Assembly: GCA_018110905.1 (NCBI GenBank)
Contig: JAGBAZ010000002.1
Span: 1 to 64,000 of the forward strand
Source of the DNA: Oscillospiraceae bacterium
Lineage (GTDB): Bacteria; Bacillota; Clostridia; Oscillospirales; Ruminococcaceae
DNA length: 64,000 bases
Direction of reading: 5' to 3'
Position 1 is the stretch's first letter, and every line of letters starts with the position of its first letter. The notes under the pieces were generated by a model. The model was not told the origin of the DNA, did not search any database, and saw only the letters and a program-made list of their open reading frames with translations. Made by a program: the position numbers and the translations under genes. This document shows positions 37,718-61,068 of the stretch, piece after piece.

Positions 37718-39196
37718 ATGGCTGAAATGGAAAATACTTGGAGAAGAACAGAATATGAAACATGGGAAGAAGCTTTCCATGGTCTTGCGCCTGCTGTAAG
37801 ACAGCAGTCTGTTCGTGTTGCTGCATATACCCAGGCAATTTATGTTCAGGCCTGCGACAAAAATTTCGGAAAGGAAAGCAAAGAAGCTTCCGAAAGAATG
37901 AAGGGCAAATATGCAGACCTTGCTTATAAATGCGGAATGTATCACCAGATAGGAAAAGCCCTTGTTCCGCATGAATATCAGATCTGGAACGACAGTTTTA
38001 CCGAAGAGGAACAGGCTGTATATAAAAAATATACGTCCGACGGACGCGTTCTTGCATCCTGCCTTCAGGAACAAAGCGGACGTTCCCGCGACAGAAAGAA
38101 AAGCGAATTTTCCGAACAGCCTACAAAAAATATTCCCTGGCTTATGATAAGAGAAAGCTGCGAACAGCACATGGAACGCTGGGACGGAAAAGGATATCCG
38201 GCACAGAAGAGCACAACTTCCATAAGCCCCATTGCCCAGATCGTCGGTCTTGCCAAAGAACTTGACAGGCTTGCTTCCGAAACAAAATCCGAAGATCCTT
38301 TTGCAGAAGCGATGCAGATCCTTATCGACCAGTCCGGAACCGCATGGAACCCCGCTCTTATCGATGTCCTTAAGGAAACCCGTTCAAAATGCAGAGCGAT
38401 CTATAACAAATATATTTATTACACCGCTGCTCTTCCGAAAACAATTCCGCTTGTTGAAAAGAAGAAGGACCGTCCTATGGGACTTAAATACCGTCCGATG
38501 ATAAGCGATACGGCCGGAACTGTTGTTGCCTATGAAGCTGTTCCGTGGTTCGGCGGAGTTCTCGGACGCCCGGGCGAAACCGAAACCGTTTCGGAAGTTG
38601 AAGAAATGCTCATAAGAAAAAAACTTGTCGAGGACATTTCGAAATATTTCCTTTACGAAGCAGCAGATGCGGTTTTAAGAATCGAAAACTGCCAGCTTGA
38701 CCTTAAATGGGTGGTTTTGAGAATGCTTCCGAGTTTCTACCAGCTTAACAGCCAGCTCCAGAATTTCAACCAGCTTTTCAAAGACCAGCCGATCAATAAA
38801 GAAAAACTTATCCTCACAATTCCCGCGGAACTTATGGCAAACGCAAACAAGAACACAACAACTCTTGTTGAACGCTATCTCCGCAACGGAATAAAACTTA
38901 TGCCCGAAGGTTATGATCCTGCCAAACACGGCGAAAAACTTCCTTTGGAAAAACTTAAGGAAATGGGCGTTACCCACATTCGTTTCGCTCCTGAAATTTA
39001 TATGCAGCAGGAAACCGCCAACGCCATCAACGCTTTCCGCAGCGCAGGTTTTACCGTGATAGGCGGCGAAGCGGACAGCCACGATACCGTAAGCTGGCTT
39101 GAAGCCTGCGGAGTTTCCTGCATGAGCGGAACCATTTCCGGCGTTATGGTAAACGAAGATGAGCTTATAAGAGATTCTCTTGTAAGAGAGAGGTAA
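37718..39196 (+). CDS. Degenerate HD-GYP/EAL-type protein
   Basis: A 492-residue cytoplasmic protein joining two c-di-GMP-related folds. N-terminal half: HD-GYP-like, with HMERWDGKGYP (151-161) at the GYP motif, but the HD pair is His76-Gln77 and one of the two His before E153 is Met152. C-terminal half: EAL-like, beginning VVAYEAVPWF and running through LTIPAEL, RFAPEIY and VIGGEAD, yet lacking the metal-binding DDFG and KID blocks. Both halves look catalytically dead, so it may act as a sensor, scaffold or adaptor. It is 4 bp before the next gene and directly precedes the matrix genes, suggesting a link between nucleotide signalling and surface assembly. Confidence 0.82.
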   Translation: MAEMENTWRRTEYETWEEAFHGLAPAVRQQSVRVAAYTQAIYVQACDKNFGKESKEASERMKGKYADLAYKCGMYHQIGKALVPHEYQIWNDSFTEEEQAVYKKYTSDGRVLASCLQEQSGRSRDRKKSEFSEQPTKNIPWLMIRESCEQHMERWDGKGYPAQKSTTSISPIAQIVGLAKELDRLASETKSEDPFAEAMQILIDQSGTAWNPALIDVLKETRSKCRAIYNKYIYYTAALPKTIPLVEKKKDRPMGLKYRPMISDTAGTVVAYEAVPWFGGVLGRPGETETVSEVEEMLIRKKLVEDISKYFLYEAADAVLRIENCQLDLKWVVLRMLPSFYQLNSQLQNFNQLFKDQPINKEKLILTIPAELMANANKNTTTLVERYLRNGIKLMPEGYDPAKHGEKLPLEKLKEMGVTHIRFAPEIYMQQETANAINAFRSAGFTVIGGEADSHDTVSWLEACGVSCMSGTISGVMVNEDELIRDSLVRER

Positions 39197-39200
39197 TCTC

Positions 39201-40517
39201 ATGGATTTAAACAAATTCAAACCGAAAAAGGAAAAAGAAACCCGGCGGCTTGAAACTTATATGATAGCGGCGGACGATCCCGTCGGCAGAAGCCAGCTGA
39301 GGCCATTTTTCAAACGAAAGCGAAGCGGCGAAGTTCTTACAAGGGAACAGGTTTCCGCAATTAAACAAGGCCGAAAACTTCTCCGCAAGGAAATGAAGGA
39401 ACAGGGCCTTAAACGTCGGATAGACTTTGAAGTAACGGCAACGAACATGGGTCTTTATTTTGACCGAAACCGTCTTTTCTGGCCGTTCTTCCTTTGGCTT
39501 ATCCGCGATAACACGGTTCTTAAGGTTCTTGCAACAACCGCGGTGCTTACAACAGCAGTAACAGTAAGCGTCCCGGTGATCGAGTACCTTACGGAATATA
39601 TAACCGAATACATTGAAAAGATCGTTGAAGAAATCGTTACACAAACAGTAACGGAATATGAGGAAAAGGAAGTCGACCGTTTTACCATAAGCCTTTCGGA
39701 CGAGCTTTTCAATTCCGGTTTTACGTTGAGCGAAAACATAACCTTTGAAAACGCCACGACCCAGCTTGTAGCAACGCCCGCGGAAGGCGTTCCCTGTATT
39801 TCAATAAGGGATATTCCAAGGGACGTTAATGACAGAGAAGGAAAATACCCAAGCCACGCTTTTCTTGCGTACACTTTTTACTGCCGTTACGAAAGCACAA
39901 CCGAAGCCCCGGCGGATTATCATTGGTCGCTCAACATTACCCAGGAAAGCGAAGTTCCTATGGAAAACCCCGAAACCGGCGAAACGTTTTCGCGTTTCAC
40001 TTCCGATGCAATTTGGGTAATGATTTTTGAAGACAACGAAATGATGCTTTACGCAAAAACCGGCGCGGACGGCGAGATCGAAGCCATTCCGGAGCAGGGC
40101 ATCACCGATATGGGTTATAACGAACCCCCGATGTATGAATTTGCGAAAGATCGGGAAGGTCAGTACGAAGTTGTTGCGGAAGGTCAGTATTTTGACCTTT
40201 ACAGGATCAAACCCCAGAACTTTGTTTCCGAAACCCTTGTGGCCGAAGGCCTTATGACCGGGGTTGCCCCCTTTGACATAAACACTTTCGACCCGACAGC
40301 GCCTTATGACCCGGAAAACCCCAACGGAATACATAAATATACCATTGTAATCTGGCTGGAGGGCGATGACCCGGAATGCACCAACGAACTTATCGGTTCC
40401 AAGATAGGTATGAACTTTACCATAAATCTTCTTACCGAGGAAAACGAAGGTGAAGAAGGTTCCGGCGAAGGAACCGGCGGCGAGCAGGGCGGCGAAACCC
40501 CCAGCGAAGGAGCGTAA
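39201..40517 (+). CDS. Type II membrane protein with C-terminal IWLEGxDxxC domain
   Basis: A 438-residue protein. The basic cytoplasmic N-terminus (about 1-95) is followed by a single span (about 96-130, LWLIRDNTVLKVLATTAVLTT..) and an extracellular domain. That domain has a short helical stalk and ends with IWLEGDDPEC (Trp385, Cys393) and a KIGMNFTINL strand, the signature seen in two SipW-type secreted proteins of this locus. The tail is Gly/Glu-rich. It lacks a SipW-type signal peptide and so probably stays in the membrane as a base or docking point for the secreted subunits. It starts 4 bp after the previous gene. Confidence 0.75.
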   Translation: MDLNKFKPKKEKETRRLETYMIAADDPVGRSQLRPFFKRKRSGEVLTREQVSAIKQGRKLLRKEMKEQGLKRRIDFEVTATNMGLYFDRNRLFWPFFLWLIRDNTVLKVLATTAVLTTAVTVSVPVIEYLTEYITEYIEKIVEEIVTQTVTEYEEKEVDRFTISLSDELFNSGFTLSENITFENATTQLVATPAEGVPCISIRDIPRDVNDREGKYPSHAFLAYTFYCRYESTTEAPADYHWSLNITQESEVPMENPETGETFSRFTSDAIWVMIFEDNEMMLYAKTGADGEIEAIPEQGITDMGYNEPPMYEFAKDREGQYEVVAEGQYFDLYRIKPQNFVSETLVAEGLMTGVAPFDINTFDPTAPYDPENPNGIHKYTIVIWLEGDDPECTNELIGSKIGMNFTINLLTEENEGEEGSGEGTGGEQGGETPSEGA

Positions 40518-40529
40518 CGCCGAAAACCC

Positions 40530-40652
40530 TGTCATTGCGAGCCTTTGAAGAAGGCGTGGCAATCCGTGATGAATAAAGGAAACGGATTCTTCACTTCGCT
40601 CAGAATGACGGAAGGTGGCGGATTCTTTGTCGCAAAGCTTCTCAGAATGACA
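40530..40652. repeat. GTCATTGCGAG-type dispersed repeat
   Basis: The core (about 40531-40610) begins GTCATTGCGAG and ends CTCAGAATGAC, giving imperfect terminal inverted repeats; a second partial unit (GGATTCTTTGTCGC...CAGAATGAC) follows to 40652. Repeats with these ends are widespread in Bacillota and other phyla and behave like MITEs. It sits between the membrane protein and the major matrix gene. Confidence 0.75.
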
Positions 40653-40768
40653 GAAATTTGTTTATGCTTTCCACTTTTGCTTTAAGTCGACAAAAGCAAA
40701 GGAATGGATCACATAGAGTTCCGGCGGGAACAGAAAAAGCGCGAAATATTTTGAAAGGAATGAGATGT

Positions 40769-43048
40769 ATGATCACAAAATCTCAAGCAAAGCGTAAGCA
40801 GGACATTAAGACCAAACTTATGGCTGCTATCGCAATGCTGCTCGTGTCCTCCATCATGATGGTATCTTCCACCTATGCATGGTTCACACTCTCGACCGCA
40901 CCTGAGGTAACCGGTATCAACACCGCTGTTGGTGCTAACGGTAACCTCGAAATGGCCCTTTTGCCCTATGGTAACGATGCCGACAGCATCACTACCACCG
41001 TTAGCGATGGTAACAAAGAGTTGGTAGAAAGAAACAAAACCTGGGGTAACCTTGTTGACCTTGCTCCCGAAGGTGCAGTGGATTATTACGGTCTTAATGA
41101 CATCACCCTTTATCCTTCCGCTCTTAATGCAGATATTATGGATGAAGGTAATTTCAACCCCACCCACATCAGCACCGGATATTTTCTCGATGTGCCCACC
41201 TACGGTGCAGACGGACGCATCAGTGAGCTGATCGGAACCCAGACCGGTGTGTTTAATACCGAAGGTAGCAATCCGGCATTCTATCCTAACGCCGCAGAAC
41301 AGAACGGTGTTCGCGCAATCGGTTCCGCTTCCGGCCTTACCCCCAGACAGCTTGCCTACCGCAACGCTGTTGCCGCAGGTAACACCGCTGCTTCTCAGGC
41401 AAAAACCTTTGCATCCCGTTCTCTCAATGCAAACGGCAGTGCTCTTGCAGATATTGCTATTGCACATGCACTCGACCCTAATGCTAAATTTGATGCAGCC
41501 GACGTTACCGCACTTCGCGCTATGATCGACAGCCTTGATGGCGTAGATGCAGCAGAAGGCGCTACCGCAAAAGACGGTGTTATCGATTATCTCGAAAGAG
41601 CATATATGCAGTATATCCTTGCTGAAGCTGCATCCCTCGGCAAAGAAGATGCTGTATATTCCGCTGTTGCAGGTAAAGTAAATGCAGAAGGCGCAACTCT
41701 TGCAGGCATTATAACCGAATTTGAAGGTCAGGGTGTAACTCTTCCCGATGCTTTCAACAATGCTGTTACTCAGTTCAACGGTATTGTAAGTGCGGTAGGA
41801 ACAGCAGAAGAGGCTCTCGAAGCGGCTGAAGCAAAAATTGCAAGTGGTACTACTGAACTTGCATGGGCAGATATCAGCGGAGCTGTAACTCCTCTTATCA
41901 AATCTGAAGCAATGACCGTTAACGGACTTACCATGGATCAGGTCAAAGCTGACATCAACAAGCTCGTTCAGTCCGTTCTTTCCCAGGGCGGTATCAATCT
42001 CGTTCTCGGAAGCGGTGCAGGCGTTTATGCCGATATCGCAGACCAGTGCGGAAACTATGATGCAAGTATCGTCATTGATAAAATCAACTATCCTGTAGGA
42101 AGCGACAGTGGTGTTGAAGATGTTGCCGCAACCATGAAAACCAACGGACTCAACCCGAGTTATCTTTCTGCAATCGGTGTTGAAGTAAGCGGAAAAGCTC
42201 CTTCCGCAGGCGCAAACGACAACATGCCTATCTCCGACATTTACGGATATATTATCGACCTTGCTTTCCGCACCAACGCATCCAGCTCCAACCTTCTCCT
42301 CCAGCAGGAAGGCGTTGACCGCATTTATGACGGAAACACCAACGAGGATACTATGGGCAACGGTTCTTCGATGATCTTCAAAGCAACCACAGCAGACTTC
42401 AACGAGACCCAGGTCAAAGGCCTTATGGACGCAATCCGCATTGTTTTCTTCAACCCGGATGATAACTCTGTTGTTGCAACCGCAAAACTTGATACCGCAG
42501 CCGCTGAACTTACCGGCGACGGCTGGAAAGCATATCTCTACCTTTATGAAAACAGCGCATCCGGCGAAGTCAGAAGCAGCGATAATGCAATCATGGCTCT
42601 TAACCAGAACGAAGCACATGCTCTTTCCGTTCTTGTTTATCTTGACGGTAACGAAGTTGAAAACAAAGACGTTGCAGCAACCGGTTCCACTTCCATGACC
42701 GGTTCTCTCAACCTTCAGTTTGCTTCTTCCGCAGAGCTTGTTCCTATGGAATATGCTGACCTTCATATCACCGGCAACCAGGCTGACGATGATGATACTG
42801 AGGAAACCACTACTAACATTACAAATGTTAGTGTAACTGGCGAAACCGGTGTCACTGCAACAGCAGTACTTAAAGGTGAAAATATCGAAATTACTCTTAC
42901 CGGTTATACTGACGGCCAGACCGTAACTGTTGATACTGGTGCCGGTGCTGCTCCTGCAACAGTAACCGAAGGTAAGATTACTGTTGCCGCACCTGAAGGT
43001 TTTAATGCAACTACAAGTACTGTAACAGTAAATGTAACTAACCCTTAA
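40769..43048 (+). CDS. Putative major secreted matrix/fibre subunit with SipW-type signal peptide
   Basis: A 759-residue exported protein. The signal segment (about 13-42) ends SSTYAWFTLS (Tyr36-Ser42), the SipW-dependent type, with likely cleavage at STYA. A KTWGNL block, Ala-rich helical inserts and a conserved YGYIIDLAFRTN strand follow. VYLDG (Tyr624) with LNLQF nearby is a relative of the IWLEG signature. The last about 85 residues are a Thr-rich Ig-like module. No LPXTG. It shares its whole core layout with the 1624-aa protein at 55410. Highly biased codon use points to strong expression. The start is the ATG at 40769, 9 bp after AAAGGA; ATG 40760 is an alternative. Confidence 0.82.
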   Translation: MITKSQAKRKQDIKTKLMAAIAMLLVSSIMMVSSTYAWFTLSTAPEVTGINTAVGANGNLEMALLPYGNDADSITTTVSDGNKELVERNKTWGNLVDLAPEGAVDYYGLNDITLYPSALNADIMDEGNFNPTHISTGYFLDVPTYGADGRISELIGTQTGVFNTEGSNPAFYPNAAEQNGVRAIGSASGLTPRQLAYRNAVAAGNTAASQAKTFASRSLNANGSALADIAIAHALDPNAKFDAADVTALRAMIDSLDGVDAAEGATAKDGVIDYLERAYMQYILAEAASLGKEDAVYSAVAGKVNAEGATLAGIITEFEGQGVTLPDAFNNAVTQFNGIVSAVGTAEEALEAAEAKIASGTTELAWADISGAVTPLIKSEAMTVNGLTMDQVKADINKLVQSVLSQGGINLVLGSGAGVYADIADQCGNYDASIVIDKINYPVGSDSGVEDVAATMKTNGLNPSYLSAIGVEVSGKAPSAGANDNMPISDIYGYIIDLAFRTNASSSNLLLQQEGVDRIYDGNTNEDTMGNGSSMIFKATTADFNETQVKGLMDAIRIVFFNPDDNSVVATAKLDTAAAELTGDGWKAYLYLYENSASGEVRSSDNAIMALNQNEAHALSVLVYLDGNEVENKDVAATGSTSMTGSLNLQFASSAELVPMEYADLHITGNQADDDDTEETTTNITNVSVTGETGVTATAVLKGENIEITLTGYTDGQTVTVDTGAGAAPATVTEGKITVAAPEGFNATTSTVTVNVTNP

Positions 43049-43090
43049 GGATATAATTTTATCCAGATAAAAAGCGAAAGCTGAAAAAAT

Positions 43091-43119
43091 ATTCCTGCCC
43101 CGGTTTCCGGGGCAGGAAT
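43091..43119 (+). promoter_or_regulatory. Intercistronic hairpin after the major matrix gene
   Basis: ATTCCTGCCCCGG / CCGGGGCAGGAAT perfect 13-bp stem with a TTT loop, followed by CAAAG rather than a U-run. It is probably a 3' stabiliser or partial terminator that raises the first gene's mRNA. Confidence 0.65.
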
Positions 43120-43258
43120 CAAAGAAAAACGCCCGGTTGGGGGTTTTTCCGCCCTTTTTTGAATGGAAAAAACGGCGGAAAAGCCCGCAACCATTACGCA
43201 TTTTATTTTATATATAAAATAAATTATAGAAAATATTAATAAGAAAGGAAGGCGCCGG

Positions 43259-44377
43259 TTGAACAAACAGAAAATCAAAGACAAAAAAAGGGCAAGACGA
43301 ACATTGATCTATCTCTATATGCTGTTTATTCTTTTTTCGCTGTTTGTCGGCGTTTCCTATACATGGTTCACCCTTTCAAGAACCCCGAGGGTAAGTAACC
43401 TTAACGTTTACGTAAACAGCAGCCCGGGAATGGAACTTTCCATAGACATGGAGGAATGGAATCTTCAGCTCGATTTCTGGGATATTATAAACCACACAGA
43501 CCCTCTTGACGAGGAAAAGGAAAAACCGGTTCTGCTTCCGGTAACATGGTCCGAAGAAGACCAATGCTTTTATGCCGCGGCCTATGGTGCGGACGGAAGG
43601 CTTAAACATTACCGGGAATGGCTTTCGCTTTCGGACGAGAGGAACGCAAACAAACAGAATTTCGAAAACTATTACATAAAAGCCACATTCTATGCCCGTT
43701 CGGGCCAGCCGGCGGAAATTTCCCTTTCGCCCGCGGTTGAAGTAAGCGAAGGCGTTGCCGGAGCGGGAACTTATGTAAGGGGTGTTCCTATCTGGAACCC
43801 GGGTCACGAAGAGATCCGCGAGGAAGAGGACGAAGAAGGAAACATCATCGAAATCAAAGAATGGGTCGGAATGGGCCACGAAAACGGCGGCCAGGGCGCG
43901 GAAAAAGCTATCCGCTACGGATTCCGCACAACGCTTCTTGTTCCGAACGAGGAAGGGGAATTTGTTCCCGCCCCGGACCAGGAACCGGAATTTGTGATTT
44001 TTGAGCCGAACTGTGAAACCCATGTTTATGCCGATGAAGGTTATATCCCGACGGAAAGCATGGACGGAACAGAGGACCTTATCGACCCGGAAAAGATAAT
44101 TTTGCAAAGCACAAGTTTTTGGGATGAAGCGGCGCCGATGGAACACGGAGTTGTTATCCACACTCTTGGTGATTTTATTGACCGGGAAGGAAACGTTGTT
44201 GATCCGCCGAAGCTTTTTACCATAAAAACCGGCGAAATTGTCCAGATAGAACTTTACATCTGGCTTGAAGGTCAGGACATAGACTGTACGAACCAGAGCA
44301 GCGACGCGAAAATTGAAGCGAACATTCAGTTTTCCGGAAAGACCGAAAACCAGTCCGGTCTTGTAAAAATCGAGTAA
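43259..44377 (+). CDS. SipW-type secreted protein with IWLEGQDIDC motif
   Basis: A 372-residue exported protein. A basic start and hydrophobic core end in VSYTWFTLS (from Tyr34), followed by SRTPRVSNL, parallel to S.AP.VTGI in its relatives. The beta-rich body contains YGADGRL and YYIKATFYAR. Near the C-terminus, IWLEGQDIDC (Trp335, Cys343) and IEANIQFSG give the shared signature. TTG start at 43259 with an AAGGAAGG site. It precedes the first SipW-like peptidase by 66 bp and is a likely substrate. Confidence 0.8.
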   Translation: MNKQKIKDKKRARRTLIYLYMLFILFSLFVGVSYTWFTLSRTPRVSNLNVYVNSSPGMELSIDMEEWNLQLDFWDIINHTDPLDEEKEKPVLLPVTWSEEDQCFYAAAYGADGRLKHYREWLSLSDERNANKQNFENYYIKATFYARSGQPAEISLSPAVEVSEGVAGAGTYVRGVPIWNPGHEEIREEEDEEGNIIEIKEWVGMGHENGGQGAEKAIRYGFRTTLLVPNEEGEFVPAPDQEPEFVIFEPNCETHVYADEGYIPTESMDGTEDLIDPEKIILQSTSFWDEAAPMEHGVVIHTLGDFIDREGNVVDPPKLFTIKTGEIVQIELYIWLEGQDIDCTNQSSDAKIEANIQFSGKTENQSGLVKIE

Positions 44378-44443
44378 TATTAGCAATAGCAGGCACGCTA
44401 TGCTTTTATATAAATTGCAAAGAAAAGAAGGGAGAAATCCAAA

Positions 44444-45427
44444 ATGAAAAAAGAGCAAGAAACGGCCGCGGTACAGATTCCTCAGGAAGCTGAAGGGGAA
44501 GTAATAGTTGCGGAAGAAGAAAGCAAAGGCAAACGAATTCTGAACACAATTGTAAACGTTGTTCTTATTGTTGCCATTGCATTGGCAGCTGTTTGTACAT
44601 ATGCGTCCTATGTTTCAACTTCAGGCAACGGTGTCCCCAACATTTTCGGTGTAAGGATTTTCTCCATTCAGACCGAATCAATGTACCCCACCCTGCTTCC
44701 CGGTGACCTTATTTTTGATACCGGTGTAAAAGAACCCGAAGAACTTCGCAAAGATGACATCATCACCTACTGGACAGTCATTAACGGCGAACGCGTTCTC
44801 AATACGCATAGAATCCACGAAATTTATGACGGCGGCGGCTATCTTATCTTCTCCACCAAGGGTGATAACAACACCTCGGCCGACCCTCTTACCGTACACG
44901 AATCGGAAATCGTCGGTAAATATTCTTTCCGCGTTCCGGGTGTCGGCAAAGTTTTCGATTATCTCCAGACAAGCACCGGATTCCTTATTGTAATCGTAAT
45001 CCCGGTCTTCCTTTTCTTCCTTTTCCACCTTGTTCAGTTCTTCAGAGTTCTGTTTGAATATCAGAACGTTAAAAACCGCATTAAGTTTGAGCAGGAACGC
45101 GGCCGCACCGAAGACCTTATCGATCAGGAACAGAAACGCCAGAGCGAAGCCCAGGCAGCTGCAAGACTTAAGATGGAAGAAGAACTTCGCGAACGTCTGA
45201 GAGCGGAGATCATGGCTTCCATGGCGGCACAGCAGGCGGCGGCACCCGCAGCAGAGGAAGTTCCCGCAGAAGAAGCTCCTGCAGAAGAAGAAAAACCTTC
45301 TGAAGAACCGGCGGAAGAAACCCCCGCAGAAGAAGCTTCCGAAGAAGAAACCGTTTCCGAAGAAGCAGAAGAAAAAGTTGAAGAAGCTGCTGATGAAGCA
45401 GCCGACAAAACGGAGGAAAATGCTTAA
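44444..45427 (+). CDS. SipW-like (ER-type) signal peptidase with acidic C-terminal extension
   Basis: A 327-residue S26B signal peptidase. The catalytic Ser79 is in TESMYPTL, and the base is His122 in NTHRI rather than a lysine: the archaeal/eukaryotic/SipW type that matures TasA-like matrix proteins. STKGDNN is the downstream conserved box. Spans lie at about 31-52 and 180-205, followed by a cytoplasmic coiled coil (about 210-260) and a 65-residue Glu/Ala/Pro tail unusual for signal peptidases. The tail could recruit the AAA+ ATPase encoded 37 bp downstream. The ATG has AAGGGAG. Confidence 0.9.
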   Translation: MKKEQETAAVQIPQEAEGEVIVAEEESKGKRILNTIVNVVLIVAIALAAVCTYASYVSTSGNGVPNIFGVRIFSIQTESMYPTLLPGDLIFDTGVKEPEELRKDDIITYWTVINGERVLNTHRIHEIYDGGGYLIFSTKGDNNTSADPLTVHESEIVGKYSFRVPGVGKVFDYLQTSTGFLIVIVIPVFLFFLFHLVQFFRVLFEYQNVKNRIKFEQERGRTEDLIDQEQKRQSEAQAAARLKMEEELRERLRAEIMASMAAQQAAAPAAEEVPAEEAPAEEEKPSEEPAEETPAEEASEEETVSEEAEEKVEEAADEAADKTEENA

Positions 45428-45464
45428 GGCTTGATTTGTCCTCCGGGAAAAACAGGTGAAAAGC

Positions 45465-47024
45465 ATGGATAATTTCTATAACTATTTTACAGAAGATATC
45501 GGACGGGTGTTCCAGGCGCTTGTCGAAGTTATAAGCGCGGTTTTCAATTTTCTGAATTATCTGTTCAACTTCCCGATGCGAATGAACATAATCAAAGAGC
45601 ACAGCGAAACTTTCAGCACCACCGACTGGGTGATGCTGCTTATCGCAAACATAATGATCATTGCGGTTTGCGTGCTTATCATATATTTTGTGGGAAAACT
45701 TATCCGGAAAATTTTCTTCGGCGGAATTTCCCGCAAAGAATATGAAAAAATGGCTGTTCAGGTACGTTCGCTTCAAAGAGAACTTATGCGTTCCAATTAT
45801 GAGAAAGACAAGATACTTTCCATGAAAATGGGCGAATATGAACCCCCGGAAGAAGAGGAAGAAAAAAAGGAAGGCGAAGAGGAGGAAACAGCCATTGTTT
45901 CCAACAGAAACACACTCCAGTCCCCTTGTGTTGATCCTTCCGACAGCCGTTTCTTCCGTCTTACCTGCGTTGATAACTTTTACAAAACCGAATATGAAGA
46001 GCCGGTATATGACAACAAGATAAACCTTGAACAGATTTGCGACAGGTTCAGAAAATTTGCTGCTTCCCAGCTCAAACTTTATTACGACATCGACATGATG
46101 CGTTATTTCCTTGCATCAATGGGAACCTCGAGGATCATCATTCTCCAGGGTATTTCCGGTACCGGTAAAACTTCCCTGCCTTATGCGTTCGGAAAATTTG
46201 TTCAGAAAGACACAACCGTTGTTTCGGTACAGCCTTCCTGGCGTGAAAGAACCGAACTTTACGGTTACTTCAACGAATTTACAAAACGCTATGCCGAAAC
46301 AGAATTCCTGCAGGCAATTTATGAATGCAACTATTTCCGCGACCCACATATAGTAATTCTGGACGAAATGAACATCGCCCGTGTTGAGTATTATTTTGCG
46401 GAAATGCTCTCCATCCTTGAAATGCCTCTTCAGGAAGAATGGAAAGTAGATATCGTAACCGCGGTTTGGGATAACGACCCTTGCCTTATCGACGGAGGAA
46501 AAGTTCAGATTACAAACAACGTCTGGATAGTCGGTACCATCAACAACGACGACTCTACCTTCGCCGTTGCGGATAAAGTTTACGACCGTGCAATTCCGAT
46601 AGACCTTGACAGCAGAGCAGACCCCTTTGAATGTGAACTTACAGACCCTGTTTACATTTCCACAGACCACCTTAACGATCTTTTTGAAGAAGCAAAGGAA
46701 AACTATCCCGTTTCCCAGGAAGTTATTGATAAACTTGAACTTGTAAACGCATATCTTATCAAAAACTTCCGTCTTGCTTTCGGTAACCGAATTATGAAAC
46801 AGATAAACGACTTTGTTCCCTGTTTCATCGGCTGCGGCGGAACGGAAATGCAGGCGATCGACTTTATCGTTGCAAAGAAAGTTCTCCGTAAGTTTGAATC
46901 TCTCAGCCTTGGTTTTATGAAAGACGAACTTACAAAGTTCAGCAACTATCTTGATAAAGTTTTCGGAAAAAACACAATGGTTATCTGCAAAGATTATATA
47001 GAGCAACTTAAGAAGAACAACTGA
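45465..47024 (+). CDS. Membrane-anchored McrB-like AAA+ ATPase
   Basis: A 519-residue AAA+ protein. An amphipathic N-terminal helix and one strong span (about 55-78, MLLIANIMIIAVCVLIIYFVG) are followed by a coiled-coil, Glu-rich linker. The ATPase domain has Walker A GISGTGKT (229-236), the McrB-family segment SWRERTELYGYFN, Walker B ILDEMN (Asp300-Glu301) and the sensor GTINNDDSTF. McrB proteins normally drive GTP-dependent restriction with McrC; here there is no DNA-binding domain or nuclease, and the context is secretion. The ATG at 45465 is preferred over the in-frame GTG at 45456, which is the ribosome site. Coupled in order with a DUF2357-like gene. Confidence 0.85.
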   Translation: MDNFYNYFTEDIGRVFQALVEVISAVFNFLNYLFNFPMRMNIIKEHSETFSTTDWVMLLIANIMIIAVCVLIIYFVGKLIRKIFFGGISRKEYEKMAVQVRSLQRELMRSNYEKDKILSMKMGEYEPPEEEEEKKEGEEEETAIVSNRNTLQSPCVDPSDSRFFRLTCVDNFYKTEYEEPVYDNKINLEQICDRFRKFAASQLKLYYDIDMMRYFLASMGTSRIIILQGISGTGKTSLPYAFGKFVQKDTTVVSVQPSWRERTELYGYFNEFTKRYAETEFLQAIYECNYFRDPHIVILDEMNIARVEYYFAEMLSILEMPLQEEWKVDIVTAVWDNDPCLIDGGKVQITNNVWIVGTINNDDSTFAVADKVYDRAIPIDLDSRADPFECELTDPVYISTDHLNDLFEEAKENYPVSQEVIDKLELVNAYLIKNFRLAFGNRIMKQINDFVPCFIGCGGTEMQAIDFIVAKKVLRKFESLSLGFMKDELTKFSNYLDKVFGKNTMVICKDYIEQLKKNN

Positions 47025-47047
47025 TTCTTCATGAAAGGAGCCGCTTT

Positions 47048-49027
47048 ATGGCGACAGCGAAAAAAAACACCGGCAAAACCGGAGCCAAAAAGGATTCTTT
47101 TATAGATCCGATTTATCAAAAATACACTAAAAGTGTTATAAGAGCTCTTGGAAGCACGGAGTTTTATGAGTTTTTCATGGACGCTGTTTCAAGAGCGGAA
47201 AACAGATTCCAGTTTTCCAACAGAAAAATGGAAAAAACTGTTGACCTCAACTGGGTCGATATTATCGAAGAAAGCCTTCCGGCAATTCAGAACATTATAT
47301 CGAGCCCGAGAAACATAATCAAAGAGGACGAACTTATTGTAAACGTGGCCAATGCGAAAAAAGCAGGTTCGGACGTTGTTCGTCACCTTGCCCAGCATGC
47401 AAGCCTTGTTGAAAAATATGATTACAACACCGGCGAAGTCCGCCCGAGCAAACTTATGCAGAAGTACCGTGAAGATACGGTTGGCCTTTACGAAAACCGC
47501 CTTGTTTTCACTGCGCTTGAAGCTGCATATCAGTTTGTAAAAATTCGTCACGATGCGCTTTTCGGTGCCATGAACGATGAATTCGGTGCAAAGCTTAAAA
47601 TCGATTCCACAATGGAAACCGCAACGGAAATGGTGCATATGGATATGTTCATGCACATCAAGGAAACGGACAGCGCCATTGAAACCGATGAAAAAAACAG
47701 CGATGTTTTTGCAAGGATCTCCAAAATTTACAGAATCCTCAGCGTTCTTATGCAAAGCCAGTTTGCCCAGCAGATGGCAAAGCTTTCGAGGGTAAAGGGT
47801 GCTCTTACCAAGACGAACATTCTTAAAAAGAACCCCAACTACCGCAGAGCGATGGAACTTCTGGAATTCCTAAGAAGTTATGATAACATAGGCTATACAA
47901 TAAGGGTTGTTGAACAGAACCCAGAGATAAACGAAGAGCTTGAAAGAGATATTTACCACAACATTCTGTTCAACTATCTTATCCTTAAGGGATATCTTGA
48001 GGACGAAAGAGACCGCAGGATCCCGACTCCTTCGAGAACGAAAAAGCGCGCTCTTAAACCAAAATTTGTTAAAGAGATTATCGAAGAACTTACGGAGGAT
48101 TATGATCTTCCGGATATCGAGATCCGCAAAGTTCTTATAGAAGAACTTACCAAAGAGCAGCTTATGCTTGAGGAAGAAGCTGAACGCCGCCGCCTTGTTG
48201 AAGAACAGGAACAGCGCAAGCGCGAGGAAATGGAACGTCTTCGCCTTGAAGCCGAGGCGGAAAAAGAACGTCAGCGCAAAGCGGAAGAGGCGGAAAAAGA
48301 ACGCCGCCGCCAGGAAGAGGAAGCAGAAAAACAGCGTCTTTTCATGGAACGCATGGAAAGAGAAGCGGAAGACCGCCGCAGATGCAAACTCTTTGCCGAC
48401 GAACTTGCTTATTTCGCAGAGCATCTTGAAGAAAAGCAGGAAGCAAGAGAAGCTGCAATTGCAAAGCGGCTTGAAGAAATCAAAGCCTTTGAAGAAGCCG
48501 AAAGACTTCGCGAAGAAGAAAAACAGCGCAAGGCCGAAGAGGAAGCCCGTCTTCTTCGTGAAAAAGAGGCCGAAGAAGCCCGTATTCAGAATATACAGGC
48601 TGAAAAAGAAGCGGAAGAACGCAGAAGATGCGAAATTTTCCAAAAAGAACTGGAAAATTTCCAAAGCCATCTGGAACAGCAGAAAAACGAGAGAGATTCC
48701 GCGGAAATCCGCCGCATAAAAGATCAGGAGGCTTTCGAGGAAACGGCAAAGCTTATGGAAGAAGCCGAGCAGCGTAAAATCGAAGCCGAAAAACAGGAAC
48801 GCGAAGAGCGGGAACGCATTATTCGCGAAAAAGAAATGCGCAGGGAACAGGAAGAAAAAGATTCCGTTCTTGCAAAACCCTATCAGGAAGAAATCGTTGT
48901 ATTCCTCAATGCCCTTCCGGGAAGAATTGTCCAGAGAGAAGCGGAAGAAAGAAGAATCCGCGCGGAAAAAGAGCAGCGTGAACTTGAGCGCCAGCGCCGC
49001 ATAGCTGCCCGCAAGGCAAGAGGATAA
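47048..49027 (+). CDS. DUF2357-like protein with a long C-terminal coiled coil
   Basis: A 659-residue cytoplasmic protein. The N-terminal half resembles the DUF2357 family that accompanies McrB-type ATPases: WVDIIEESLPAI, a SSPRNIIKED block, HLAQH, and the hallmark YENRLVFTAL (148-157). DUF2357 proteins usually end in a PD-(D/E)XK nuclease; here residues 330-659 are instead a highly charged E/R/K coiled coil. No signal peptide or membrane span. It follows the McrB-like gene by 23 bp, matching the usual pairing. I infer an ATPase adaptor or scaffold, not a nuclease. Confidence 0.75.
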   Translation: MATAKKNTGKTGAKKDSFIDPIYQKYTKSVIRALGSTEFYEFFMDAVSRAENRFQFSNRKMEKTVDLNWVDIIEESLPAIQNIISSPRNIIKEDELIVNVANAKKAGSDVVRHLAQHASLVEKYDYNTGEVRPSKLMQKYREDTVGLYENRLVFTALEAAYQFVKIRHDALFGAMNDEFGAKLKIDSTMETATEMVHMDMFMHIKETDSAIETDEKNSDVFARISKIYRILSVLMQSQFAQQMAKLSRVKGALTKTNILKKNPNYRRAMELLEFLRSYDNIGYTIRVVEQNPEINEELERDIYHNILFNYLILKGYLEDERDRRIPTPSRTKKRALKPKFVKEIIEELTEDYDLPDIEIRKVLIEELTKEQLMLEEEAERRRLVEEQEQRKREEMERLRLEAEAEKERQRKAEEAEKERRRQEEEAEKQRLFMERMEREAEDRRRCKLFADELAYFAEHLEEKQEAREAAIAKRLEEIKAFEEAERLREEEKQRKAEEEARLLREKEAEEARIQNIQAEKEAEERRRCEIFQKELENFQSHLEQQKNERDSAEIRRIKDQEAFEETAKLMEEAEQRKIEAEKQEREERERIIREKEMRREQEEKDSVLAKPYQEEIVVFLNALPGRIVQREAEERRIRAEKEQRELERQRRIAARKARG

Positions 49028-49064
49028 AAAAGCGTTTCAGAAAGCAGAGTGAGAGGTAACCGCT

Positions 49065-50402
49065 ATGACAAAGATATATTTTAAGTTAATAGCAATGGCT
49101 CTTGCACTGCTGCTTTCTGTTTCGGTGCTGATAATGTCCTCCTATGCATGGATGGTGCTTTCGAGCAGCCCTGCTGTAACGGGTATCAAAGTTATTATCG
49201 GCGGCGGAAACACAATTCTTGTCGCCCCCGATACTGCAGAGGAAATCAACGGGGAAATATATCATTATCCGGGATATTTTTCGGATAAGCTTAATTTCGG
49301 AACATATCAAAATTACGATTACCTCAAAGAACTTGGCGGACTTACCCCGGTTTCGACAACGAACGGCATCGACTGGTTTTTGCCGGCTTATTATTCCGCA
49401 GGCGACCCGGAAGTGCAGTCCGGTAAAGTTTTAAGCGGTGTTATGAAAGATGTTTCGGAATTCAAAGCGGACAGCGAACTTTCCCATGCAAATCTTTCTT
49501 CGGAAGAAAAAGATAAAATAAAAGAGGGAAATTACATCTATCTTGATTTCTGGGTGGTTTCGCCCGGCGGCGATTACACCCTTCGCGTTTCCACCGGAGA
49601 TGAAGATGCAAACGGCGGAAGTTTTGTAACGGATCTTCCGGAAGCAAAAAAGATAGCCGACGAATATACCCTTTCCATACCGGAAGGAAAAGCTTCTGCG
49701 GCTGTACGCATCGGTTTTCTTGCAAACGATTCCCAGCTTACCGATGATACAATGCTTGAATATCAGCAAAGCGGTTACGCCGATGACCGTTACACCGCAT
49801 TAAAAGGTATTTATATGGAACCGGATTCCGGAACGGCTTATCTTGATTCGGACCATTTTACCGTTTATGAACCGAACGGCGATTTGCATCCGCTTAACCC
49901 TAAGCTTGACGGAAGCTATGTTCAGACAAATCCTCTTGGCTATGAAAACGGGATTATAACCGAAAACAAGAATTTTTCCGATCATCTCACCGTCCAGCTT
50001 TCCGGATCTTGGGCAGCAGCGGACAGCGGAGAAGAAACGATTCTTGAACAGAAGTTCCAGACCGCCTTGCTTCCATGGGCCGATCGTAATGAACTTTCGG
50101 AAAAAGAAATCACCGACCGTTTTTACAAAGAAGCCCTTCAGGGACAGATTTCTCCGTTTTATATAAAAGGAGATTTTATAAGAGATTCGCGGAATTTAAC
50201 AGCCAATATGTCCGAAGACGAACTTGAAAAATTATTTAACGCAGGCGCAACGGAAAATGTCTATATTGTAAAGCTGGAGCAAAACAAGCCCCAGAGAATA
50301 AGAATGTTTATCTGGTTGGAAGGACAGGATGTGGACTGCATTGACGGAATCGATGCTTCGCGCATTGCGGTGAACATTGAATTTGCCGGCGGCAGTGAAT
50401 AA
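49065..50402 (+). CDS. SipW-type secreted protein with IWLEGQDVDC motif
   Basis: A 445-residue exported protein. The hydrophobic signal ends MSSYAWMVLSSSPAVTGI (Tyr27 onwards), matching the SipW-type segments of the locus. The body is beta-rich with IYLDFWVVSPGGDYTLRV, and the C-terminus has IWLEGQDVDC (Trp417, Cys425) and RIAVNIEFAG. It is paralogous in ending to the 372-residue protein at 43259 and lies 6 bp before the second SipW-like peptidase. GAGAGGTAA precedes the ATG. Confidence 0.8.
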   Translation: MTKIYFKLIAMALALLLSVSVLIMSSYAWMVLSSSPAVTGIKVIIGGGNTILVAPDTAEEINGEIYHYPGYFSDKLNFGTYQNYDYLKELGGLTPVSTTNGIDWFLPAYYSAGDPEVQSGKVLSGVMKDVSEFKADSELSHANLSSEEKDKIKEGNYIYLDFWVVSPGGDYTLRVSTGDEDANGGSFVTDLPEAKKIADEYTLSIPEGKASAAVRIGFLANDSQLTDDTMLEYQQSGYADDRYTALKGIYMEPDSGTAYLDSDHFTVYEPNGDLHPLNPKLDGSYVQTNPLGYENGIITENKNFSDHLTVQLSGSWAAADSGEETILEQKFQTALLPWADRNELSEKEITDRFYKEALQGQISPFYIKGDFIRDSRNLTANMSEDELEKLFNAGATENVYIVKLEQNKPQRIRMFIWLEGQDVDCIDGIDASRIAVNIEFAGGSE

Positions 50403-50408
50403 TAAATT

Positions 50409-51176
50409 ATGAATAATATAATTAAAGAAACGGGGGATGCCCGCCTTCAAAGGAAGATAAGTGCTTTGGTAACGGTTCTTCTTGTTCTGGCGGTTACCCT
50501 TTGCCTGTATGCGACAATACAGGTTTTGAGCAAAGGATATGCAAATATCGGCGGCTTTATGATGTTCCGCGTTGTTACCGGAAGCATGGAACCCGAAATT
50601 CCCGTGGGTGCGCTGCTTTTGACAAAAGAAACGGAAATCGAAGCCGTTGAAGTTAACGATATCGTGTGTTTCCGCACACAGGTATCGGAAATTTGGGGAA
50701 AGATAGTTACCCACCGGGTGGTGGATATTATAGAGCCGGAAGCGGGAAAGATCCTTTTGGTGACAAAAGGTGACGCAAACCTGGTTACGGACGGTTATTA
50801 TGTGGACGAAACAAATTTTTTGGGCAAGGTTATCTGGCATACGGGAGATGGCAATATGTTTGCAGGCGTTTTAGATTTCTTTACAAGCGAACTTGGTTTT
50901 TTGGGATTCATTGCTCTTCCGAGCCTTTTGCTCGCCGGGCTTATTTTAAGAAACACGGTGTCCAATATTCAGCAGGATCTGAAACTTGCCGTTGAAATGG
51001 AAAGACGCGAAAAAGCTCTTTCTGCGAAGGAAGAAGATTCTCTCTGCGGAATGACAGAAGAGGAATATAACGAAATGTACGAAAGAATCCGAAAGGAACT
51101 TATGGAGGAGATGATGAAGTTTGAAGAAATTCAAATTGAGCAAAATTCCCTTTCCGAACGACCTGAAGATAAATAA
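50409..51176 (+). CDS. Second SipW-like (ER-type) signal peptidase
   Basis: A 255-residue S26B peptidase. Ser59 in VTGSMEPEIPVG and His102 in VTHRV are the catalytic pair; TKGDAN is the third conserved box. Membrane spans lie at about 18-38 and 165-185, with a charged helical tail to the C-terminus. GSMEP is the standard SipW sequence, whereas the other copy has ESMYP, so the two may handle different substrates. Its 3' end overlaps the next gene by 56 bp. Confidence 0.9.
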   Translation: MNNIIKETGDARLQRKISALVTVLLVLAVTLCLYATIQVLSKGYANIGGFMMFRVVTGSMEPEIPVGALLLTKETEIEAVEVNDIVCFRTQVSEIWGKIVTHRVVDIIEPEAGKILLVTKGDANLVTDGYYVDETNFLGKVIWHTGDGNMFAGVLDFFTSELGFLGFIALPSLLLAGLILRNTVSNIQQDLKLAVEMERREKALSAKEEDSLCGMTEEEYNEMYERIRKELMEEMMKFEEIQIEQNSLSERPEDK

Positions 51177-53145
51177 AAACTTTTTTTCGAATGAAAATTC
51201 CGGAGAAATTGCAAAACTGAATAAGAATATTTTCATGCAGATCGGGCTTGCTTTCCTGACAATAGTCCTTACTGTGGTAATTTTGTTTGCAATGACTTCC
51301 GCATGGTATACAAACATTGCTCAGACCAGCGGACTTGTTTTTGAAGTTGAACCCTGGGGTTTTGACGGTGAAATAATCACCAGTGAAAAATCTGTCGAAG
51401 CGGGCCCCGGCGATAACGGCATTATTCACCTTGAAGCGGAAAACAACAGCGACAACATAATCGATATCAGCGTAAATGTTTCCAAAAACGAAATGCTGCC
51501 CGAAATGCAGAAAAGGCTTTTCTTTTATGTTGAAACAAATTCTGTCCGCGAAGGCGAAAAAATGGAAAGGGTCTATGTAAATAATCACGAGGGATATACA
51601 TATACGGTTTTTAACCAGAGTTCCCTTACCCTTACGGAAAAAGTAAGCAACGCGCCGAAACTTAAGTGGCAATGGGTCTATGACGTTCTGGGATATTATG
51701 TACTCGGAACTGCAAACAGCGATGAAAGCGTAACGGTGGAAGAATATCTCCGTCCCATTGAGTATGATTATGACAAGGCAACTTTTGCCAAAACGACCAC
51801 AACTGTGGATGGCGAAGAAAAAGAAGTATATAAGATCCTCACCGTGGACGGAGAAACAACGCTTGCTGAATTCCTTGCCGAAGTTTTTGCTTCCGACGGT
51901 TACGGCGGAACAGTACCAAGTAAAGTTTCGACCGGCAAATTTTATCCGGTTGAAGTTGATGGGGACGGTCACGGCGTTTACGCATATCTTTGCAGCTATT
52001 CCGACATTGAAATGGCGACAAAGTATGATACAAATTTGGGAAATCTTGCGCAAAAGAAAGCGGAAGGAAATGAGCTTTCCGCCGAAGAAAAATTGCTCCT
52101 TACACACAAAGCAAAGCTTAATGTTTCCGCACAGAAAAACGCAGCACCGGCGGTAAGCATCAGTTCTGCCGAAACCCTTCAGGAAATCATAGCTTCCGGG
52201 GAATTCAATTACGTTCAGCTCAGCAGCAATATTGATGTTGAAACGCTTGTGATCCCCGACGGCGCAAATATAATGATCGACCTTAACGGAAAAACCATTG
52301 AGGGAAGCGGTAAAAACGTTATTGACGCAGAACCGGGAAGTTCCGTAACAATGGTAAACGGCACGATTGCCGGTCCTGAAACAGCGAATGCCGTAAATGC
52401 CGTGGGTGCGGAAATTAATATGAGCAACATCAATATTTCCGGAATGTATTACGGAGTTTATGTCGGCGACAGCACCGAAGACAATGCCATTGATTCCACT
52501 GTCAGAATTGTTGGATCCACCATCGATACAAAATCCTGCGCAGTCTTTGTTTCCGGAAACGGACTTGCTTCCGAACAGAAAACCACTGTTGTGATAGAAA
52601 ACAGCACCCTTATGAGTGACGGAATAGTAATTTCCGGCAACGGAACCACCACCGGAAACGGAAGATGGGGCACCGATATAAATATTATAGACAGTTACAT
52701 TATCGGAAATGAAGATACTGTCGGAGCGGGAATTTATCAGCCCCAGAAGGACAGTACAATTACAATTTATCACAGTACCGTTTCCGCATATACCGCAGTA
52801 GCAATCAAAGCAGGTTCTGTGAAAATTATTGATTCCACTATTAAAGGTACAGGTACATATAATGAACCTGCATTCGGAAACAGCGGTTTCAGCGATACGG
52901 GCGATGCGGTTTATATCGAAACCGGATACGGACACGATATAAGCCTTGAAATAGACGTAAACAGCAGGCTTGAACATGATGATGCAAGAAGCCTTTCGCT
53001 TCGCGTGTTTAAAGAAGATGCTCCGTTTGTAAAGGTAAATATCATAAGCGGCATATTTGACGAAGCACAGCCGGAAGAATATATTGCAGAAGGTTCTGTG
53101 CAGAACGGAACGATAGTTTCGGTTTTGCAGTCTTCTGAAGAATAA
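51121..53145 (+). CDS. SipW-type secreted protein with right-handed beta-helix
   Basis: A 674-residue exported protein. After an extended N-terminus (about 40 residues), the signal span ends MTSAWYTN (Trp62), a variant of the SipW motif. The C-terminal half (about 350-650) repeats short strands of the form I.G..I......V.V.....I..S.I, with ENST, GST and DST turns, typical of a parallel beta-helix that binds polysaccharide. The TTG start at 51121 has a GGAGGAGATG site 8 bp upstream and overlaps the preceding peptidase gene by 56 bp. No LPXTG. Confidence 0.75.
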   Translation: MKKFKLSKIPFPNDLKINKNFFSNENSGEIAKLNKNIFMQIGLAFLTIVLTVVILFAMTSAWYTNIAQTSGLVFEVEPWGFDGEIITSEKSVEAGPGDNGIIHLEAENNSDNIIDISVNVSKNEMLPEMQKRLFFYVETNSVREGEKMERVYVNNHEGYTYTVFNQSSLTLTEKVSNAPKLKWQWVYDVLGYYVLGTANSDESVTVEEYLRPIEYDYDKATFAKTTTTVDGEEKEVYKILTVDGETTLAEFLAEVFASDGYGGTVPSKVSTGKFYPVEVDGDGHGVYAYLCSYSDIEMATKYDTNLGNLAQKKAEGNELSAEEKLLLTHKAKLNVSAQKNAAPAVSISSAETLQEIIASGEFNYVQLSSNIDVETLVIPDGANIMIDLNGKTIEGSGKNVIDAEPGSSVTMVNGTIAGPETANAVNAVGAEINMSNINISGMYYGVYVGDSTEDNAIDSTVRIVGSTIDTKSCAVFVSGNGLASEQKTTVVIENSTLMSDGIVISGNGTTTGNGRWGTDINIIDSYIIGNEDTVGAGIYQPQKDSTITIYHSTVSAYTAVAIKAGSVKIIDSTIKGTGTYNEPAFGNSGFSDTGDAVYIETGYGHDISLEIDVNSRLEHDDARSLSLRVFKEDAPFVKVNIISGIFDEAQPEEYIAEGSVQNGTIVSVLQSSEE

Positions 53146-53171
53146 CAGAATCAAAACAAAGGAGAAAGCCA

Positions 53172-53807
53172 GTGGACAGACAAAAGAATAGCTTGCTGCG
53201 GCATTTACTGTGTCTGGCTTTGCTGCTTTGCATGGCGGCTCTGGTAATTGCCACCGGAACAACCTATGCGCGTTACCGCACCGATGCCGAAGCAGAAATA
53301 TTATTTGAAGTAAAAACACCTTCACAGATCATTATAGGAACGGTTTTGACCTATGCCGAAGGAAACGAAGAGTTTGATCCAAGCGGAATACCGGAAGAAT
53401 GGAAAACCGAAGGAAACACAGCAACACTTGAAATCGCGGTTTCCAACGGAAGTTCCGGAAACGGCATAAAAGATCAGGAGATAAGATTTCGGCTTATCGG
53501 AGGGCTTGGTCTTTCCGTCGGCGAAGGTACAGCAGAAGTTACGCTTAAAATAACAGAGGACGGTTCGGAAAAAATCTTTTATGCGGAGGCTGAAAAAATC
53601 CTTGAAAACACCGCTCTTCATTTTGAGCACGGAGACGGTTGGGTGTTCACCTTTTTTGATGAAAACGGAAAAGAATTTTCAAGGATCCTCGAAGGCGGAA
53701 AAAGCTCATATATAAAAATGAGCATAATCGTTGATACCACAGAAATCGACAAAGAAAACCTTAATCTGATGATCGAACCGCAGTTTATTGCGGAAACGAT
53801 CGACTAA
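53172..53807 (+). CDS. SipW-type secreted small protein (TYARYRT)
   Basis: A 211-residue exported protein. The signal peptide ends ATGTTYARYRT (Tyr32), a recognised SipW-type ending. The mature part is a short beta-sandwich-like domain with alternating strands and no Cys. The GTG start at 53172 follows AAAGGAG. It lies 26 bp after the beta-helix gene and 29 bp before the next SipW-type gene. I see no IWLEG signature; it may be a minor subunit. Confidence 0.72.
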   Translation: MDRQKNSLLRHLLCLALLLCMAALVIATGTTYARYRTDAEAEILFEVKTPSQIIIGTVLTYAEGNEEFDPSGIPEEWKTEGNTATLEIAVSNGSSGNGIKDQEIRFRLIGGLGLSVGEGTAEVTLKITEDGSEKIFYAEAEKILENTALHFEHGDGWVFTFFDENGKEFSRILEGGKSSYIKMSIIVDTTEIDKENLNLMIEPQFIAETID

Positions 53808-53836
53808 AATAAAAAAGGAAAGGAGAAAAACGGCTT

Positions 53837-60343: not shown

Positions 60344-61048
60344 ATGGATATTAAAACAATAACTATGCTCTCAATAGGTACCGGTGCAATGCTTGTGCTC
60401 ATAGCAATTCTTATGAAATGCTATAAAGTTGTGGTATGGAAGAGCGTTCCGGTTTCTCTTTTACTTACGGTTGCAGGAACAATAGGAACTTATATCTGGT
60501 ATTTTGTTGAAACATCATATTTTAGTGGAAGATCTTATTATGGGGCAGTATTTCTTGTACCGTTGATGTTTGTTTTTGTGGCAAAACTAATGAGGATTCC
60601 ATATGATGATCTTATGGATTTTTGCGCACCTGCGGAATGTATAATGCTTGCAATCATGAAATACCAGTGTCTTACGGAAGGTTGTTGCGCTGGAAAAGTT
60701 TTGTATATTCTTGAAAACGGGGACCCCAAAATTTTTCCAAGTCAGATGGTTGAACTGATAAACGCATTTTCAATAATGGCCGTTCTCATGTTGATGTGTT
60801 TTTCTAAAAAATACAGAGGAAAAATTTATCCGTGGTATATGGTTATTTATGGTTCAACCCGTTTTGTTTTAAACTATTTCAGAGAAACAGAACCACTTTT
60901 GATTGGACTTCCTGCAGGAAATCTTTGGTCATTGGTTGCGATTGTTATCGGTATAATGTGGATTAAAGATTATCAAATCAAGATTATAAAAAAAGAAAAA
61001 AACGAAAGATTGGATTCGGCTTGTGAAGAAAACGAATCCTCAACTTGA
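60344..61048 (+). CDS. Prolipoprotein diacylglyceryl transferase-like membrane protein
   Basis: A 234-residue protein with about seven spans. Lgt-like landmarks occur in order: GAVFLVPLMF, the TEGCCAGK loop (compare GC..GCCYGK), FPSQMVELIN (compare HPTQLYE, His replaced by Phe) and STRFVLNYFRE (compare GR F.IE.FR). The C-terminus is a charged cytoplasmic tail. It is a divergent Lgt paralog and may lack activity. Lgt moves diacylglycerol to a lipobox Cys; none of the complete secreted proteins in this locus shows a lipobox, so a special substrate or a non-lipoprotein role is possible. Confidence 0.72.
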   Translation: MDIKTITMLSIGTGAMLVLIAILMKCYKVVVWKSVPVSLLLTVAGTIGTYIWYFVETSYFSGRSYYGAVFLVPLMFVFVAKLMRIPYDDLMDFCAPAECIMLAIMKYQCLTEGCCAGKVLYILENGDPKIFPSQMVELINAFSIMAVLMLMCFSKKYRGKIYPWYMVIYGSTRFVLNYFRETEPLLIGLPAGNLWSLVAIVIGIMWIKDYQIKIIKKEKNERLDSACEENESST

Positions 61049-61068
61049 ATGAGAGAAAGGAGGCCACC

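Follow-up and report, generated by a model that had tools for sequence, protein, structure and literature searches.

What kind of protein ends in IWLEGxDx(D/E)C, and what might its cysteine do? The question is raised by a locus in the first 64,000 nucleotides of contig JAGBAZ010000002.1 (GCA_018110905.1) from an Oscillospiraceae bacterium, the whole stretch analysed here and called the window below. A preliminary description had reported that three proteins of this locus share an IWLEG ending with a conserved Cys, followed ~10 residues later by a hydrophobic strand. We found IWLEGDDPEC in the protein encoded at 39201-40517 (Cys393 of 438 residues), IWLEGQDIDC in that at 43259-44377 (Cys343 of 372 residues) and IWLEGQDVDC in that at 49065-50402 (Cys425 of 445 residues). 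The hydrophobic strand follows at the reported distance in all three. These were the only matches to the pattern in the six frames of the window, and a profile search of the whole genome assembly returned the same three proteins as the sole matches. The features of the locus are listed in Table 1, and its proteins are named below by their first coordinate.

Table 1. Features of the locus, with coordinates in the window and the basis of each assignment.
Feature	Coordinates	Strand	Basis
HD_5 + EAL-like protein, kept directly upstream of the subunit genes	37718..39196	+	family matches, EAL weak
Type B subunit: long cytoplasmic N-terminus, one TM (~residues 106-127), extracellular jelly-roll, IWLEGDDPEC	39201..40517	+	sequence and model
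Motif hairpin of 39201: penultimate strand end, Cys turn, last strand	40350..40427	+	profile and model
SipW-signal protein, Asn version of hairpin (VYLDGNEVEN)	40658..43048	+	sequence, hhalign
Type A subunit: SipW-type signal (GVSYT/WFTLS), jelly-roll, IWLEGQDIDC	43259..44377	+	sequence and model
Motif hairpin of 43259	44258..44338	+	profile and model
SipW-like (archaeal/ER-type) signal peptidase 1	44444..45427	+	TIGR02228 E 1.6e-25, above cut-off; NF046067 E 3.8e-29, below cut-off
Membrane-anchored AAA+ protein, McrB-like, GTINNDDST (NxD)	45456..47024	+	family models, motif
DUF2357 (McrC N-terminal domain) protein, long charged coiled-coil-like region	47048..49027	+	DUF2357 E 6e-8
Type A subunit 2: SipW-type signal (SSYA/WMVLS), single Cys, IWLEGQDVDC	49065..50402	+	sequence
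Motif hairpin of 49065	50310..50390	+	profile
SipW-like signal peptidase 2	50409..51176	+	TIGR02228 E 4.6e-22, above cut-off
Three proteins (51121, 53172, 53837) with SipW-type-resembling export signals, no motif	51121..55420	+	
1624-aa SipW-signal protein, Asn version of hairpin (VYLDGALLNN)	55410..60284	+	

A scan of genome contigs yielded at least 480 confirmed related stretches, and 80 clostridial loci were taken from it. Using a search profile in which the Cys column was masked, so that Cys counts were not forced by the profile, we found the hairpin in 139 proteins from these loci. E was present in all 139, G in 138, the first D in 138, W in 136, Cys in 135, N/D at Cys +2 in 132 and D/E before the Cys in 128; conservation of the Cys, as proposed earlier, is therefore real. 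The carriers were otherwise 20-30% identical, yet W, E, D and C were near-invariant. The motif proteins fell into two groups, one membrane-anchored and resembling 39201 (type B), the other with a SipW-type signal and resembling 43259 and 49065 (type A). When the C-termini of the two types were compared by hhalign, the probability was 98% for the hairpin (E 2.6e-13) and 96.7% for a longer stretch (E 3.5e-10). This agreement, together with recurrence in 139 proteins, places the signature far beyond chance. By tblastn, the 39201 C-terminus also recurred in related genomes in ~240-aa proteins beside SipW. In the type A family, EPN (residues 249-251 of 43259) and Gln283 were invariant in an alignment of 30 proteins.

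The motif was present in 11 of the 291 genomes of a class sample. In 398 phylum-sample genomes, searched for occurrences outside the class, we recovered the source genome itself, one 76-aa frame with a stop (E 9e-4) and nothing else. None of the family models covers the motif proteins; TIGR04088 matched one member only (E 0.0024).

A related VYLDG had been placed at the equivalent position of 40658 and 55410. We located VYLDGNEVEN at ~42635 and VYLDGALLNN at ~57609. In the 40658 family (n = 37 proteins) the hairpin reads Y-L-D-G-x-x-(V/I)-x-N, with Asn at the Cys column in 37/37, and the first D of the motif is lost where Asn stands in place of Cys. The hairpins of the 40658 and 43259 families were homologous by hhalign (95%, E 1.8e-8, with segments picked around both motifs), and profile comparison of the N-terminal part of the 40658 family with 43259 gave a similar result (95%, E 3.3e-8). 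The proposed equivalence therefore stands for the hairpin; it fails for a C-terminal location, because tens to hundreds of residues come after it in 40658 and 55410. Judged from these alignments, VYLDG of both proteins is the IWLEG hairpin with Asn for Cys. The invariant Asn of the VYLDG proteins could be an isopeptide partner.

We assessed export signals in the motif proteins. A hydrophobic segment near the N-terminus was present in 133/133 pattern-matched proteins from the 80 loci, and in all class-sample carriers that were not cut by a locus end. Among these loci and genomes we found no motif in unrelated cytoplasmic families. The motif is thus confined to exported or membrane-anchored proteins, as had been suggested, but it does not mark every exported protein of the locus, since 40658, 55410, 51121, 53172 and 53837 carry export signals and have no Cys motif. 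Type A proteins have a SipW-type signal and SipW in the locus, where two SipW-like peptidases (44444 and 50409) score above the TIGR02228 cut-off; type B (39201) has a TM anchor in its place. Sequences like SSTYA/WFTLS and SSYA/WMVLS, whose cut positions are inferred, resemble the site TWA/AF at which SipW cuts TasA (PMC10269814), with an aromatic at P2'. TasA assembles via an N-terminal donor strand (PMC9674648).

We predicted the structures of 39201 and 43259 with AlphaFold2, using alignments of 61 and 37 sequences, respectively. Mean pLDDT was 93.3 for the 39201 ectodomain and 90.5 for 43259. The penultimate and last strands were E228-238 and E253-261 in the 39201 model and E295-305 and E316-330 in the 43259 model. 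The hairpin occupied the identical place in both: the motif W ends the penultimate strand, the Cys lies in the turn and the last jelly-roll strand follows. A sortase-like or anchoring sorting signal was judged unlikely, as the models put the motif inside a folded domain. The only stretch of the 43259 model with pLDDT <50 was the mature N-terminus (residues 1-8), which fits a free donor strand and proves nothing.

In VIA-align searches, the TasA fibre 8aur ranked 1st for 43259 (Z 5.8, 150 residues) and 2nd for 39201 (Z 6.0, 131 residues), both below the guide value of Z 8. Archaeal fibres (7pnb/7ueg) and chaperone-usher pilins were also listed, unrelated sandwiches came close behind, all Z were <8, and Foldseek with both models gave no match at E <= 0.001. 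Sequence profiles of the motif proteins found no convincing match among solved chains in the PDB, none to TasA and no WLEGxDxxC profile match. The fold likeness to TasA is suggestive, not proof; the subunits are TasA-like by context and this fold hint and are not TasA family by sequence. In these models, the signature is the predicted last beta-hairpin of a TasA-like jelly-roll domain.

We examined the cysteines of the motif proteins. Past the N-terminal 60 residues, 27/133 motif proteins have no other Cys (9/80 type B, 18/53 type A), and in 49065 the motif Cys is the single Cys. No second Cys position was conserved among the motif proteins. The two commonest second-Cys positions of type B were mutually exclusive (26 vs 25 proteins, 0 with both), a pattern that may only reflect descent. 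Because no second Cys is conserved and 27/133 proteins are without another, an obligatory intramolecular disulfide is unlikely and was ruled out as a general rule. An internal thioester (Cys-Gln) found no support: the last-strand Gln is conserved in type A only, and there is no Gln among the type B conserved columns. As the Cys persists in proteins that have no other one and is missing from the VYLDG class, comparison of the sequences indicates that it is probably functional rather than a requirement of the hairpin.

Gene order around the signature was conserved. In ~30 near loci we observed FIVAR - HD/EAL - 39201 - 40658 - 43259 - SipW - AAA, and in many distant Ruminococcus and Lachnospiraceae loci 39201-like - SipW - AAA - DUF2357 was kept. 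In the class sample, the AAA protein (E < 1e-80) was present in 11/11 motif genomes vs 2/280 others (P = 3e-18, Fisher test, kinship between genomes ignored), and DUF2357 in 9/11 vs 9/280; it was not detected in motif genomes G233 and G274. In 10/11 genomes the motif and AAA genes shared a contig and were separated by no more than a few kb; in the exception, G253, the distance was ~36 kb. For 21 further motif genomes, whose fetched locus was AAA-less or cut, the AAA gene was in the record set of 17. The HD_5/EAL-like protein upstream is possibly a degenerate c-di-GMP receptor, which would link the locus to c-di-GMP; EAL-like proteins also precede 39201 relatives in L011-L014 (by eye). The locus is followed, at 60344-62979, by two further proteins, one of 234 aa that is LGT-like (prolipoprotein diacylglyceryl transferase) and a surface protein with leucine-rich repeats of the BspA type.

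The AAA homologues carried a TM-like segment, Walker A and NxD in 43/43; GT.N.D.S fits all 43 and GT.N..D.S fits 0/43. The 45456 protein weakly matched the McrB model PRK11331 (E 8e-5), and 47048 contains 83% E/K/R/Q/D/A over 100 aa, coiled-coil-like by composition. CoCoPALM systems were named in 2024 in a paper whose available portion gives the class and its signal peptidases, describes no structural cargo and identifies DUF2357 as the McrC N-terminal domain (PMC11090510). Its authors stated that they would publish on these systems separately, and that work may by now have covered the cargo (PMC11090510). Our literature search found no later CoCoPALM paper and, among its best matches, none joining DUF2357 with SipW or TasA. 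As far as that portion goes, the locus matches the class in an McrB-like NxD protein with a TM segment, a DUF2357 (McrC homologue) protein with coiled coils, here by composition, and adjacent signal peptidase genes (PMC11090510). The CoCoPALM McrB-like protein has an FtsB-like TM/coiled-coil N-terminus (PMC11090510); for this feature, the homologues here show a TM-like segment. These data suggest that the motif proteins are the likely cargo of a CoCoPALM-type cluster, and that IWLEGxDx(D/E)C is a strongly conserved signature of its exported jelly-roll subunits.

We considered whether the AAA+/DUF2357 pair serves in defence, as a Type IV restriction-like module, and merely travels with surface genes. 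The 45456 protein matches the PADLOC candidate PDC-M26A, DUF2357 belongs to McrC in the CoCoPALM paper as available (PMC11090510), and the two AAA genomes without motif genes (G282, G297) have the pair, with no SipW in the stretch read. The last observation means that the pair is not dedicated to motif cargo. A defence role nevertheless appears improbable, given the TM-like segment in every AAA homologue, the near-perfect co-occurrence and adjacency with motif genes, and the searches of Pfam, NCBIfam and PADLOC, which detected no nuclease family on 47048, where a divergent McrBC-type PD-(D/E)xK nuclease is possible. AAA/DUF2357 pairs without SipW or motif proteins lie at L130 4447-9603 and L131 5009-9334; in L130 a duplicated AAA gene adjoins an exported protein of 1383 aa, in which a transglutaminase-like region was seen by eye.

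One tentative reading of the Cys turn is that it joins subunits through an intermolecular disulfide or another covalent bond and so acts as a fibre-locking device. It agrees with retention of the Cys in 135/139 proteins, including those with no other Cys, and with the VYLDG class, whose Cys-free hairpin indicates that the hairpin itself does not need Cys. Clostridial SipW-dependent BsaA polymers resist SDS, boiling and formic acid; they also survive reduction, so disulfides do not explain this precedent, and BsaA is likened here by published description, not by motif (PMC7395162). Cysteine deletion in TapA had no effect on biofilm formation (PMC10151520), and the carriers are mostly gut anaerobes, both of which weaken the case. 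We think it rather unlikely that the turn, E-G-x-D-x-(D/E)-C-x-(N/D), would be a calcium or transition metal site stiffening the hairpin or a subunit joint. Its acidic positions and the N/D at +2 are conserved along with the Cys (D 138/139, D/E 128/139, N/D 132/139), and the first D disappears where Asn replaces Cys; all of these are observations on the sequence. Nor do we give much credence to the Cys as a mere structural turn residue kept by descent in separate, never-polymerising surface adhesins, since W, E, D and C are invariant in such divergent proteins and the SipW and ATPase context is fixed. In favour of adhesins, many beta-sandwich proteins with no relation to these reach scores close to that of TasA, and polymers of the subunits are a proposal.

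We favour a fibre model as the probable explanation, in which the motif proteins are clostridial TasA-like jelly-roll surface subunits, released by SipW and assembled into a fibre with AAA+/DUF2357 help, and the Cys turn is a subunit contact. The model builds on the motif, the place of the hairpin in the predicted structures, the membrane and export signals and the gene association. Cleavage by the adjacent SipW-type peptidases would free the type A subunits (43259, 49065) and leave them an aromatic mature N-terminus, and type B (39201) would stay anchored by its own TM helix as the membrane base of the fibre. By analogy with TasA, the freed N-terminal strand may fill in the jelly-roll of the neighbouring subunit, so that a surface fibre forms. 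The membrane McrB-like AAA+ protein and the DUF2357 coiled-coil protein may drive or gate export or assembly, and the Cys/acid turn would make the subunit contact through an intermolecular crosslink or a metal-stabilised joint.

More speculatively, and with considerable doubt, CoCoPALM loci at large may be machines that build fibres. TasA-like subunits, joined covalently or metal-dependently at the WLEGxDxxC turn, would be exported or assembled by a McrB-like motor in the membrane together with a McrC relative that is free of nuclease. If true, Gram-positive-type bacteria would possess a donor-strand fibre system driven by a motor. The signature would tie McrB-like ATPases, usually regarded as anti-phage enzymes, to cell-surface assembly, and the question of SipW-dependent fibre building outside Bacillus becomes directly testable. 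With the signature, a single line of sequence is enough to test for the likely cargo of a gene cluster that is widespread in gut and rumen Clostridia and has barely been described. Automated defence annotation of such SipW/AAA/DUF2357 loci may mislead.

Among known systems, the archaeal bundling pili and threads (7ueg, 7pnb) are donor-strand beta-sandwich fibres and ranked with the top fold matches to the 43259 model; they differ in being archaeal, in their modest Z of 4.6-5.7 and in giving no WLEGxDxxC profile match in the PDB. BsaA of Clostridium perfringens is a SipW-dependent clostridial secreted protein, and it polymerises; its operon, sipW-bsaABCRSD with a two-component system, is unlike the locus here (PMC7395162). 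The Bacillus biofilm fibre proteins TasA/CalY (camelysin), which are processed by SipW, share with the clostridial proteins the jelly-roll subunit (predicted here), sipW in the locus, a SipW-type signal with aromatics around the cut and a hydrophobic N-terminal strand. The clostridial subunits differ from them in having no detectable sequence similarity, larger domains and the conserved WLEGxDxxC turn, and their locus adds the McrB-like AAA+/DUF2357 genes and a membrane-anchored type B subunit.
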